From positions 1 to 10,324 of the forward strand of contig JADFWU010000079.1 in NCBI GenBank assembly GCA_015234045.1: a DNA stretch of 10,324 nucleotides, in the 5' to 3' direction. Positions within the stretch are counted from its first letter, which is position 1. The number at the start of each line of letters is the position of its first letter. This DNA is from Magnetococcales bacterium. GTDB taxonomy: Bacteria > Pseudomonadota > Magnetococcia > Magnetococcales > JADFWU01. Positions 5,218 through 10,253 of the stretch are shown here, one piece after another. The notes beneath the pieces were generated by a model, which saw only the letters and a program-made list of their open reading frames with translations, had not been told where the DNA came from and ran no database searches. Both the position numbers and the translations under genes were made by a program.

Positions 5218-6882
5218 ATGGCCAGTCCTGCACCCAAAGCCCCACCCCGGCAGAAGATCTTACTCTGGTGGCGCAAAGTAACCCCGCGCATGCTGAAATC
5301 TGCCTGTCAGCAGATGAGCCGAACCGGTCAGATGCCCGGTGTCAATGCAATCCCCCTGGATGAACCAACCCGCGCTCTTTTTGAACAAAGCAACACCACA
5401 CCTCCGGCCTCTTCTGCTGGCGGCCATACTGCCTTGGCGCGGCGTGATGTCTTTGATCTACTGGACATTAAATTTGCTCGACTCCTACGCCAAGCGCTAC
5501 CCGGAACTCTGCTAGGCGATACCACAGTCACACCCATGCCCATGGTCGCCATACTCAGCCCTTTAGGACTGGCGTTTTGGGATCGTGATGCAGGCCTGAA
5601 ACCTGGACATGTGCTGGAAGTTCAGTATTGGCCATTTCCCGACAATCCGATGAAAATCCGTGCATTTGCCCGGGTTATACGTGTTCATCCGCCCAATGAG
5701 GCTGATCGGGTTCGCGTTGACTGTCGATTCGAAAAACTGGAACAAACGATTCAGAAACATGAAAAACCTGTGCGCCGCTCTGCGCCACCACCACCCGAGC
5801 CAATAAAACCAGCGCCTCCCGAACCCGAGATTATCGATCTGGACGCACCGGGTATACCGCCACCACCACCACCACCAGAACCCATGGTTAAAGCGGCGTT
5901 CCAACCGAAACCAGAACCTGAGCCTGAGCCTGAGCCTGAAGCTAAAAAGGGTGACGGCAAAAACAAACGGCAATCGTTCCGACTCAATGATGATATTCCG
6001 TTCACCTGGAAACTCATCTCTGAACACGACTATGAACTTGCCCTCAATCATCTATTCCACGAAAATGAGCTACCGCCACGGGCTATGGAGGCCAAATTCA
6101 ATGCGGCCTTGCAACGCCTGGATCGGGATATCGTTTTTCTGCGTAAAATGCGATCAAAAGCAGCCAATTCAGCGAATTGGTTAAAAGAGCAACTGCAAAA
6201 ACAGTTTCTCGGCGCAGGTATGCCAGCGGAGGAAGAGATCTATTTCTTTCTACTGGTTCGGGTTGCCAATGTGGTGGAAGAGTTGGTTGAACTTCGCCCC
6301 ATACCGCCTAAAGCGGTACAGTTGATGGATCATATGAAATCCAAGTTCCAATATATCCGTCAACGGGATGAATCAGAGTTGGCCAATGATGGACAACGTC
6401 TGCAAAAATCCCTGGAGGCACTGTCCAATCTTGAGCGTCAAATCACCAAAAAGGGCTTGGATCTGGAAGACCGCGCACCAGAAGCCGGTAAACGACTCCG
6501 TCAACTGAGTGACAAGCTCTCCATTTTGGAATTCAAGAGTATTGATCCACCCAGCAAGCCCGTCAAAGGGCCTGAAGGACTGCCCATCTATACGATTAAT
6601 ATCAGCGCCACTGGACTTGCTTTCCGTACTTTTAAGCAAGGACTGCAAAATGGTGATATCCTATCCATCAGAATGGGATTGGGGTTGTCTGATGACGTAC
6701 AAATCGAAGAGTGTTTCGGCAAAGTGGTCATGACCAAAGGGCCGGAAGAAGATGGTTCTTTCCGCATTGCCTGTCAGGTTATTGATCAGTCAGATGAGTT
6801 GCGCGACCGTATCCATTATCACATCACCCAGCGTCAACGTGAGATTCTGTCTGAGCAGTGGCGTAAAAACAACATGGAGTAA
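5218..6882 (+). CDS. Two-module PilZ domain protein with Pro/Glu-rich linker
   Basis: Cytoplasmic protein of 554 residues, related to the preceding gene. Residues about 105-175 form a degenerate PilZ-like barrel: AILSPLGLAFW sits where NLSGSGIAIW lies in the neighbour, but the Asn/Asp is Ile112, and no RxxxR is found upstream, so this module probably does not bind c-di-GMP. Residues 186-245 are a low-complexity linker with runs of Pro and Pro-Glu repeats. The second module begins RQSFRLNDDIPFTWKLISE (Arg251, Arg255), closely parallel to the first gene's start. It then has a helical, coiled-coil-prone insert (about 280-440) and NISATGLAF (Asn461, Ser463, Gly466), both motifs intact. A helix ends the protein. 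There is no membrane segment. ATG 5218 lies 4 bases after the upstream stop, implying coupled translation. The likely role is a c-di-GMP-responsive partner of the neighbouring PilZ protein or stator; the target is unknown. Confidence 0.82.
   Translation: MASPAPKAPPRQKILLWWRKVTPRMLKSACQQMSRTGQMPGVNAIPLDEPTRALFEQSNTTPPASSAGGHTALARRDVFDLLDIKFARLLRQALPGTLLGDTTVTPMPMVAILSPLGLAFWDRDAGLKPGHVLEVQYWPFPDNPMKIRAFARVIRVHPPNEADRVRVDCRFEKLEQTIQKHEKPVRRSAPPPPEPIKPAPPEPEIIDLDAPGIPPPPPPPEPMVKAAFQPKPEPEPEPEPEAKKGDGKNKRQSFRLNDDIPFTWKLISEHDYELALNHLFHENELPPRAMEAKFNAALQRLDRDIVFLRKMRSKAANSANWLKEQLQKQFLGAGMPAEEEIYFFLLVRVANVVEELVELRPIPPKAVQLMDHMKSKFQYIRQRDESELANDGQRLQKSLEALSNLERQITKKGLDLEDRAPEAGKRLRQLSDKLSILEFKSIDPPSKPVKGPEGLPIYTINISATGLAFRTFKQGLQNGDILSIRMGLGLSDDVQIEECFGKVVMTKGPEEDGSFRIACQVIDQSDELRDRIHYHITQRQREILSEQWRKNNME
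5905..5940 (+). repeat. Six-base tandem repeat encoding Pro-Glu
   Basis: Four consecutive copies of cctgag (the last ending in a) occupy 5917-5940, preceded by two imperfect units (ccgaaa, ccagaa), encoding Pro-Lys then five Pro-Glu units. A CCA-rich run encoding seven prolines lies just upstream near 5860-5877. Both are in frame and prone to slippage; copy changes in six-base units would alter linker length without breaking the frame. Confidence 0.8.
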
Positions 6883-6888
6883 TCAACA

Positions 6889-8241
6889 GTGCGTTCTACC
6901 CATACGCTGTTTAGTACGCTTAATGGACCGTCTCGTCAAATTGCGTTAGGTTGGCTCGGGTTAGCACTGGCTTCCATGGTTGGTGCTGGACTTGTGGTGA
7001 TTCTGATCGTCTTGGCACGCATGCCGATCATCCATGACATGATCCCCTGGGTAGGTTCGTTCAAAACCGCCTTGGTGATCCATGTGGATCTTTCGGTGCT
7101 GGTTTGGTTTTTGGCTTTTGCAGGTGTAATTGCCGCCTTCACCATGCGTGAGGGTGTCTCTCCTCCAGCCCGCATGGGTATCAAGCTGGCCTGGCTGGGC
7201 ACCGTTCTGATCACATTCTCGCCCTTTCTCGGTGCGGGAACACCCTATATGAACAACTACATCCCTGTGCTGGAGAACCAAGCATTCTTTGCCGGGATTA
7301 TCCTTTTTTCCATCGGATTTCTACCTACGGGCCTCCTTGGTACACTTTCCGCCCGTCACGCGGATCTTGCCTATGATAAGGCACTCATACTAGGCAGTCG
7401 TATCGCCCAAGCTCTGGCCCTTCTCGCCATCCTGTTTGTTATCTGGAGCGGATTTACCCTGCCCGGCGATGTCAGCGGTGAATATCAGTATGAAATTCTG
7501 TTCTGGGGCGGCGGTCATATCCTACAATTCACCCATACCCATTTGGTTTCTGTTGTATGGCTGAGTTTGGCACTGTTTGGCGGTCTGCGTGTTATGGGCT
7601 CGGGACGCGCGATCACTTTTACCTTTATTATCGGTGCCCTGCCTATTCTGGCTGCGCCGGTCATTCAGATTCTATTCCCGTTGGACACGGTAAGCTATCG
7701 GGATGGCTTTACTGAAATGATGCGCTGGGGTAATGGCATCACACCACTTATAATCGGCTTGATGCTGTTGCCTGGATTGCTTGCTAATCCTACCGATGAC
7801 GCACAAAGCCAAATTGCACGCACCACCTTACGTCTGTCTCTGTTGCTGTTTCTGGCTGGCGGTGTGATTGGCTTCATGATCCGGGGCATCAATGTCACCA
7901 TTCCTGCCCATTACCACGGCTCTATTATCGCTATTACACTGTGCTACATGGGCTTCACCTATTTACTGCTTCCCATGTTGGGACGTGGTACGGTCTCGCC
8001 TATCTGGGCACGCAGGCAGCTATGGATTTATGTGTTGGGTCAACTGATCCATATATTTGGTCTCGCTTGGTCCGGTGGTCATGATGTGCAACGTAAAACC
8101 GTTGGTGCCGCTCAAGAGTTGGATACACTACAAGCTAAACTGCCTATGATGGTGACCGGTATTGGCGCGGGTATCGCAATTATAGCGGGTATCATGTTTT
8201 TGGTTTTGGCTATACGTGCTTTTCGTCAGAAGCAAACGTGA
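6889..8241 (+). CDS. Heme-copper oxidase subunit I-like membrane protein, divergent active site
   Basis: Integral membrane protein of 450 residues with about 12 predicted helices (20-43, 59-86, 98-115, 128-152, 166-190, 203-230, 240-262, 281-298, 313-333, 338-363, 376-396, 418-444), the layout of oxidase subunit I. Kept features: His65 in helix II (HVDLSVLVWF), His210 in helix VI (FWGGGHILQF), His341 and His343 in helix X (PAHYHGSI), which would ligate high- and low-spin heme, and HIFGLAWSGGH after helix XI. Missing features: helix VII has no His-His pair (it reads ALPILAAPVIQ), and position 214, where Tyr or Glu often follows the helix VI His, is Phe. Extra His216 and His218 follow the helix VI His. 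No subunit II or III, cytochrome c or assembly gene is nearby. GTG 6889 has GGAG 9 bases upstream and lies 6 bases after the PilZ stop, so it shares that operon. The fold is likely; oxygen-reducing activity is doubtful. Confidence 0.75.
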   Translation: MRSTHTLFSTLNGPSRQIALGWLGLALASMVGAGLVVILIVLARMPIIHDMIPWVGSFKTALVIHVDLSVLVWFLAFAGVIAAFTMREGVSPPARMGIKLAWLGTVLITFSPFLGAGTPYMNNYIPVLENQAFFAGIILFSIGFLPTGLLGTLSARHADLAYDKALILGSRIAQALALLAILFVIWSGFTLPGDVSGEYQYEILFWGGGHILQFTHTHLVSVVWLSLALFGGLRVMGSGRAITFTFIIGALPILAAPVIQILFPLDTVSYRDGFTEMMRWGNGITPLIIGLMLLPGLLANPTDDAQSQIARTTLRLSLLLFLAGGVIGFMIRGINVTIPAHYHGSIIAITLCYMGFTYLLLPMLGRGTVSPIWARRQLWIYVLGQLIHIFGLAWSGGHDVQRKTVGAAQELDTLQAKLPMMVTGIGAGIAIIAGIMFLVLAIRAFRQKQT

Positions 8242-9623: not shown

Positions 9624-10253
9624 GTGGACAGTGAGATTACAAAAAACACTACTGGAAAATCAGTCTCATTCTGGAAAGGATTAGTACTGACCTATTTGAT
9701 ATTTCTAGCAATTTTCTTTGCTGCAACGCCTTTTTTAACATTTTTACTCTACTGGGAAACCGATCTTTCAACCACCATGTTGCCTGAATTGATCGGCTTT
9801 TGCCTTCAGGGGGCTTTTTTAGTATTGATCTTTGGCCTGTATGAACGCCGCTCGGCAATCAACGCCAAAAACAATCAAAAATTTGCTCTACGCATGTTTG
9901 TTTCTTCTTTCTTACATCGCAGCCTTTCGCAATCGGATAACAGCGGTAGTGGTGAATCCTATCCTTCCTCCCTGCCCAACCCGTTTGAAAAAGAGATCAA
10001 CTTGATTCAACAAGAAGGCCTCACGGACCGCCAAGCCAAAAGACTACGCACACTCGCCCGCTTGGAAACCCCCTCTTTGGCCTCTCTTTCAGCGGTCGCT
10101 GCGGGGCTGGACTATGCCCACCTTGAAGCATGGAATACTATTTTGAACGACCTGCGTCGTTTGCGGGATTCAACCACGCTGGAGGACACATCCCGCCTGA
10201 CGCTTGCCCTGCTTGGCAGCGTTAACCGGTTCGATGCTTTGGCATTTTCCTAG
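9624..10253 (+). CDS. Unrecognised two-helix membrane protein
   Basis: A 209-residue protein I do not recognise. After about 18 polar residues come two strongly hydrophobic helices (about 19-43 and 53-72) joined by a short acidic turn (ETDLST). A long polar, mostly helical C-terminal half follows (about 74-209) with many Arg, Leu and Gln residues, including the positively charged LYERRSAINAKNNQKFALR just after the second helix, which by the positive-inside rule puts both ends in the cytoplasm. There are no catalytic motifs, no histidine or cysteine cluster, and no signal peptide. GTG 9624 has GAGG 9 bases upstream. It lies 51 bases after the DUF3301 gene and 11 before the next start, in what looks like the same transcription unit. 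Real as a gene by length, ribosome site and membrane pattern. Confidence 0.75.
   Translation: MDSEITKNTTGKSVSFWKGLVLTYLIFLAIFFAATPFLTFLLYWETDLSTTMLPELIGFCLQGAFLVLIFGLYERRSAINAKNNQKFALRMFVSSFLHRSLSQSDNSGSGESYPSSLPNPFEKEINLIQQEGLTDRQAKRLRTLARLETPSLASLSAVAAGLDYAHLEAWNTILNDLRRLRDSTTLEDTSRLTLALLGSVNRFDALAFS

Follow-up and report, generated by a model that had tools for sequence, protein, structure and literature searches.

A CuB-less haem-copper-oxidase-fold protein, probably a helper in oxidase assembly, in Magnetococcales and other bacteria

The 10,324 nucleotides examined for the current report (the window) make up the whole of contig C94 in G000, a Magnetococcales-like assembly that is fragmented and 93% complete, and they raise the question of what a relative of oxidase subunit I might do for a cell when it lacks the paired histidines of the catalytic copper site. 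The protein concerned is encoded by an open and intact reading frame of 450 codons, with GGAG lying ~9 nt 5' of its GTG start and the start itself placed 6 nt past the stop of a PilZ-domain gene. The initial annotation had taken it for an oxidase-like protein with no His-His pair in helix VII and with Phe at the Tyr site of helix VI, and had considered roles that ranged from a haem-binding relative without normal O2 reduction to a gas or redox sensor, with a hint of a link to motility. The features to which we refer below are the following.

5218..6882, + strand: PilZ-domain gene upstream of the CuB-less gene, 554 aa (Pfam; adjacency absent in relatives)
6889..8241, + strand: CuB-less haem-copper-oxidase-fold membrane protein, 450 aa, 12 helices (ORF, Pfam, AlphaFold2 model, structure matches)
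7081..7083, + strand: H65, helix II, predicted low-spin haem ligand (invariant in 71/71; profile alignment)
7492..7542, + strand: helix VI motif, residues 202-218, EILFWGGGHILQFTHTH (H210 and Q213 invariant; F214 at the Tyr/Gln site)
7663..7668, + strand: I259-Q260, aligned to the eNOR helix VII His-His H277-H278 (profile alignment)
7909..7917, + strand: H341-Y342-H343, helix X, predicted high-spin and low-spin haem ligands (invariant)
8050..8052, + strand: H388, helix XI (His in 67/71 relatives)

Fold and ligand positions

The Pfam COX1 model spans residues 18-426 of the protein at 22.8 bits, which is below its curated cut-off of 34.8, and searches of NCBIfam and PHROGs returned no family for it. 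Sequence matches in the PDB were weak and all except one were to ba3-type COX1; the family profile reached E 2e-12. The AlphaFold2 model, which was computed from an input alignment of 71 sequences (the window protein and its relatives), has 12 long helices (pLDDT 89.2, pTM 0.92) and matches A-type COX1 structures (Z 31.5, 417 residues aligned, 3.2 Å) as well as, over nearly its full length, cNOR NorB (4xyd, Z 30.0) and cbb3 CcoN (3mk7, Z 28.7). As modelled, the protein has the 12-helix subunit I fold that is common to the haem-copper oxidase (HCO) superfamily, and at the level of the fold it matches all three of the enzymes named in the initial annotation.

In the comparison with profiles of the HCO families, the nearest was eNOR subunit I (E 3e-29, 21% identity over 439 columns); A-type COX1 gave E 2.6e-5 and only 15% identity. 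Ligand positions were assigned from the profile-profile alignment with the eNOR family, and conservation was counted in the alignment rows of 71 relatives. H65, H210, H341 and H343 pair with H66, H228, H382 and H384 of eNOR, Q213 pairs with Q231 and F214 with Q232; there is no variation at H65, H210, Q213, H341 or H343 in any of the 71. The haem-ligand histidines expected of the superfamily in helices II and X are represented by H65, H341 and H343, and H210 is at the position of the helix VI CuB histidine. The 12 helices, the single histidines of helices II and VI and the HYH of helix X that had been read from the window were thus borne out by the model and by this invariance.

Catalytic oxidases and NO reductases hold CuB or FeB with three histidines, which include the His-His pair of helix VII. 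H210 is the only invariant one of the three in the family under discussion: a His-His pair within residues 240-266 (helix VII) occurs in 0/71 rows, and while the confidence of the alignment is low for this helix, no alternative His-His is present there. Position 260 is Tyr in 49/71 relatives, His in 13/71 and Gln in 3/71. Since the haem ligands are invariant and the helix VII pair is absent, the two haem sites appear to be preserved, and a three-His CuB/FeB site cannot form. Judged from these alignments, the protein is very probably a haem-binding HCO relative without normal O2 reduction, in agreement with the initial annotation.

Oxidases carry Tyr at the helix VI site that is occupied here by F214. 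Gln at the same site is diagnostic of eNOR (PMC8756737). The residue found there is Phe in 67/71 relatives, and the CuB-less protein, lacking the Gln, is not an eNOR. An altered metal site made of His216 and His218, which had also been suggested, is rejected because neither residue is conserved across the 71 relatives: position 216 is His in 53/71 and Tyr in 14/71, and position 218 is Gln in 41/71 and Leu in 22/71. H388 occupies what we take to be no known HCO ligand position and, by the same alignment, is a histidine specific to this family. Two trivial origins of the gene were likewise rejected, a frameshift or truncation because the ORF is open in all relatives, and decay of an oxidase copy because the family is widespread and conserved, with four histidines invariant in 71/71.

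Phylogeny and gene neighbourhoods of the relatives

Of the 48 genomes in the order to which the window belongs, 36 encode the protein or a relative, the window genome counted, and the close relatives are 46-61% identical to it; that of genome G044 is represented by just 110 aa where its contig ends. At least 579 loci were confirmed in a scan of 84,980 species genomes, and the best 80 of these belong to Magnetococcales, Gammaproteobacteria and Nitrospirota. The family forms a clade of its own (96/94) in a tree that separates it from the eNOR and A-type proteins and unites it (100/100) with a sister clade (100/95) of CuB-less proteins, several of which bear C-terminal TPR repeats; the deeper branching order of this tree is unsure owing to long branches. 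By its fold the protein is a member of the HCO superfamily, one without the defining feature of the catalytic members. It resembles eNOR subunit I in fold, in the histidines of helices II, VI and X and, in many Gammaproteobacteria, in sharing an operon with it, but it has no helix VII His-His, carries Phe in place of the eNOR Gln and falls into a separate clade. Similarly, it retains the 12-helix fold and haem ligands of A-type COX1 but lacks the CuB His-His, the cross-linked Tyr and the conserved C-terminal PWxSxSLEW region. If these distinctions are true, many proteins now annotated as cytochrome oxidase subunit I may be non-oxidases, which matters for calls of respiration and NO reduction in metagenomes. 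The open-access papers that we searched do not describe the family; a mention in the main eNOR paper (10.1073/pnas.2316422121) is possible.

The neighbours of the gene in the window are PilZ, motA/motB and thiD-like genes (Pfam). In the 554-aa PilZ protein the PilZ matches fall in two stretches and there is a linker rich in proline; its gene follows motA, motB and another PilZ gene, with which it forms a flagellar c-di-GMP cluster. Another ORF of the window (9624-10253) encodes a membrane-like protein of 209 aa without a Pfam or NCBIfam match, and no plasmid record matched the window. When all of the window genes were compared by tblastn with ~40 related loci, the COX1-like gene alone was found. 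The PilZ link is therefore private to the window genome, and the PilZ gene at 5218-6882 is probably not part of the system to which the CuB-less protein belongs. The survey of homologs that had been recommended thus upheld one expectation, the family-wide absence of the helix VII pair, and not the other, since the tie to c-di-GMP and motility rested on a PilZ adjacency that recurs at none of these loci. A haem-based gas or redox sensor, perhaps tied to PilZ, would be in keeping with a protein that has lost the catalytic metal and kept its haem sites, and with the pair of PilZ genes that directly precedes its gene in the window. We nevertheless consider it very improbable: no PilZ gene lies beside any relative examined, no output domain is conserved as a fusion or neighbour, and the relatives are found instead among structural genes for oxidases or NO reductases and genes for haem O/A and copper assembly, a setting that yields no positive evidence for sensing.

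An oxidase/NOR structural or maturation gene is located within six genes of the CuB-less gene at 54/75 analysed loci outside the window, a raw count of genes that are few per genome. These neighbours encode CtaA, CtaB, SCO, DUF420/CtaM and A-type oxidase or eNOR proteins. The ctaA gene is nearby at 6/16 Magnetococcales loci and 15/59 others, and among the latter 59 loci ctaB is found at 24 and SCO and an oxidase/eNOR subunit I at 25 each; the labels NirS, hemerythrin, Crp/Fnr, COX3 (L102) and SURF1 (L114) were read from sequence alone. The linkage to haem A/O synthesis and oxidase genes that might be expected of an assembly factor exists, in other words, in the relatives and not at the window locus. 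The constant companions of the CuB-less protein are haem O/A synthesis and HCO assembly, with no single terminal enzyme.

The arrangement differs between lineages. The CuB-less gene is often divergent from ctaA in Magnetococcales, and in Mariprofundaceae-like genomes it is followed by ctaA on the same strand with a stop/start overlap of 4 nt (three loci); coordinates indicate ctaA adjacency in seven more genomes from this family or a related one. Nitrospirota loci have the order SCO-COX2-COX1(-ctaB) and then the CuB-less gene. The usual order in Gammaproteobacteria is COX2/CuA, eNOR subunit I, ctaB, SCO, a cytochrome b/4Fe-4S/FlpD protein, a 167-aa protein and the CuB-less gene, and the eNOR subunit I of these operons bears GHSSQQ with the eNOR Gln. 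A cupredoxin (CuA) subunit II, as expected of eNOR, was not found in the window, and any that accompanies a relative goes with the gene for eNOR subunit I. The gene for the 167-aa protein (L096:7446-7955, + strand, without a Pfam family) is directly 5' of the CuB-less gene at 16 loci, with gaps of -20 to 172 nt, and its product is a candidate partner of the CuB-less protein. The cytochrome b, 4Fe-4S and FlpD/MvhD fusion inside the same eNOR operon (L096:5885-7453, + strand, 522 aa) is a possible electron-input protein for NO reduction.

The position of the CuB-less gene at the end of the eNOR operon in many Gammaproteobacteria could mean that its product takes part in respiration directly, as an enzyme or subunit whose active site has been altered; examples would be a divergent reductase of NO or peroxide, or a subunit that transfers electrons for eNOR. 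The eNOR profile being the closest, the invariance of H210 and Q213 and the predominance of Tyr or His at position 260 would be consistent with such an enzyme. It seems to us quite unlikely, however, because a trio of metal ligands is not conserved in the family, because neither a subunit II nor a cytochrome c accompanies it in every case, and because eNOR is absent from the Mariprofundaceae-like and many of the Magnetococcales carriers. For the latter reason, a protein that is partner to eNOR only was rejected.

Co-occurrence with CtaA and SURF1

SURF1 is a haem A insertion factor of cytochrome oxidase. Among the 48 genomes of the order, 35 encode both the CuB-less protein and CtaA, 1 the protein alone, 2 CtaA alone and 10 neither (phi 0.83), the genome with the protein alone being that of the window. 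No other association in the order was as strong (phi 0.48 for CtaB, 0.43 for eNOR and 0.38 for A-type CoxA). In a survey of 348 genomes of Pseudomonadota, each at least 90% complete, CtaA was present in 35/36 carriers of the CuB-less protein and in 221/221 SURF1-bearing genomes. The 261 CtaA-positive genomes divide into 33 with the CuB-less protein only, 219 with SURF1 only, 2 with both and 7 with neither. The raw Fisher p for this exclusion is ~1e-32, uncorrected for kinship among genomes that are not independent, and the 33 come nearly all from Magnetococcales and one Mariprofundaceae-like family, so that they represent few independent events. Within the latter family, nine carriers all have CtaA and eight listed non-carriers all lack it.

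We also examined 42 further carriers, reached via named loci, whose assemblies come with no completeness figures. All 36 of those outside the Nitrospirota have CtaA, and 16 of the 36 are without SURF1; SURF1 is kept in 20/42. Neither CtaA nor SURF1 was detected in the six Nitrospirota carriers. Both were also undetected in the 93% complete window assembly, which might reflect either a gap in the assembly or a haem-O-type oxidase. Contig C29 of that assembly (L196) carries a COX3-SCO-COX2-COX1-DUF420(CtaM)-ctaB-SCO operon. Genome G016 (estimated as 100% complete) has CtaA and the CuB-less protein, and no A-type oxidase, eNOR or clear CtaB was found in it.

The CtaA proteins of Magnetococcales, the Mariprofundaceae-like family and five gammaproteobacterial carriers form a subclade (99/93) with one SURF1-bearing genome inside it, and CtaA from loci with eNOR and the CuB-less protein clusters with the Magnetococcales and Mariprofundaceae-like sequences. 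Gammaproteobacterial carriers have a second, cysteine-rich CtaA clade, beside SURF1 in several genomes. This shared subclade, the translational coupling to ctaA and the rank of CtaA as the strongest co-occurring protein are all features that might be anticipated if the CuB-less protein were a redox partner of haem A synthase, that is, a membrane cytochrome that exchanges electrons with CtaA on one side and with the quinone or cytochrome c pool on the other while haem O is converted to haem A. We regard a partner of this kind as unlikely, since it leaves the SURF1 exclusion unexplained and since CtaA is undetected in 6/6 Nitrospirota carriers and in the window genome, several of these genomes keeping ctaB and an A-type oxidase. 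The Nitrospirota carriers argue against a pure CtaA partner, and the retention of A-type oxidase and ctaB in them and in the window genome favours haem delivery or insertion, or the assembly of subunit I.

A proposed role in haem delivery

The near exclusion with SURF1 likewise points to the step of haem delivery or insertion. We think the odds slightly favour an oxidase-fold haem protein that helps to deliver haem O/A to, or insert it into, oxidase subunit I and that partly stands in for SURF1; in more general terms, the CuB-less protein is probably a previously unrecognised oxidase-assembly helper. As a stand-alone relative of the oxidase/NOR subunit I that acts in the maturation of haem-copper enzymes, it would bind a haem at each of the two places where subunit I normally does so and be incapable of O2 or NO reduction. 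Its subunit-I-like pocket might take up haem O or A that CtaA/CtaB supply at the membrane and then pass it to a genuine subunit I, or hold it while subunit I folds. In Magnetococcales, the Mariprofundaceae-like bacteria and probably others, the CuB-less protein would do the job of SURF1. Against such a role are the 20 of 42 other carriers that retain SURF1, the seven CtaA-positive genomes with neither protein, the window genome with no detectable CtaA and genome G016 with no detected A-type oxidase or eNOR.

The step proposed for the CuB-less protein matches that of SURF1, and both proteins are tied to CtaA and are near-exclusive in Pseudomonadota, but the two are unrelated and the CuB-less protein is not a SURF1. 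SURF1 spans the membrane with two helices and carries a large outer domain (PMC9145763), in contrast to the 12 helices and haem-ligand histidines of the CuB-less protein. A haem-binding copy of subunit I that is tied to CtaA, whose gene overlaps ctaA in some genomes, and that nearly excludes SURF1 would, if true, offer a direct handle on the step that the two proteins would share.

A broader and more tentative scenario, which we would rate at somewhat less than an even chance, is that an oxidase subunit I, on losing its copper site, became a widely distributed chaperone for haem O/A, one that takes the place of SURF1 and transfers haem from CtaA/CtaB to newly made subunits of oxidases and NO reductases, and that the TPR-bearing sister clade may do likewise for multihaem cytochromes beside ResB/CcsA-like proteins. 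The sister proteins are also CuB-less, with the HCO fold and no helix VII histidines, but they differ in having a C-terminal TPR or other extension and in their neighbours, which are genes for multihaem cytochrome c, ResB and cytochrome c assembly and not those for CtaA/CtaB. At the sister-clade loci L041:3404-9300, L035:3971-9294 and L038:3914-6049, the operons combine genes for multihaem cytochrome c with others that resemble ResB and cytochrome c assembly genes.
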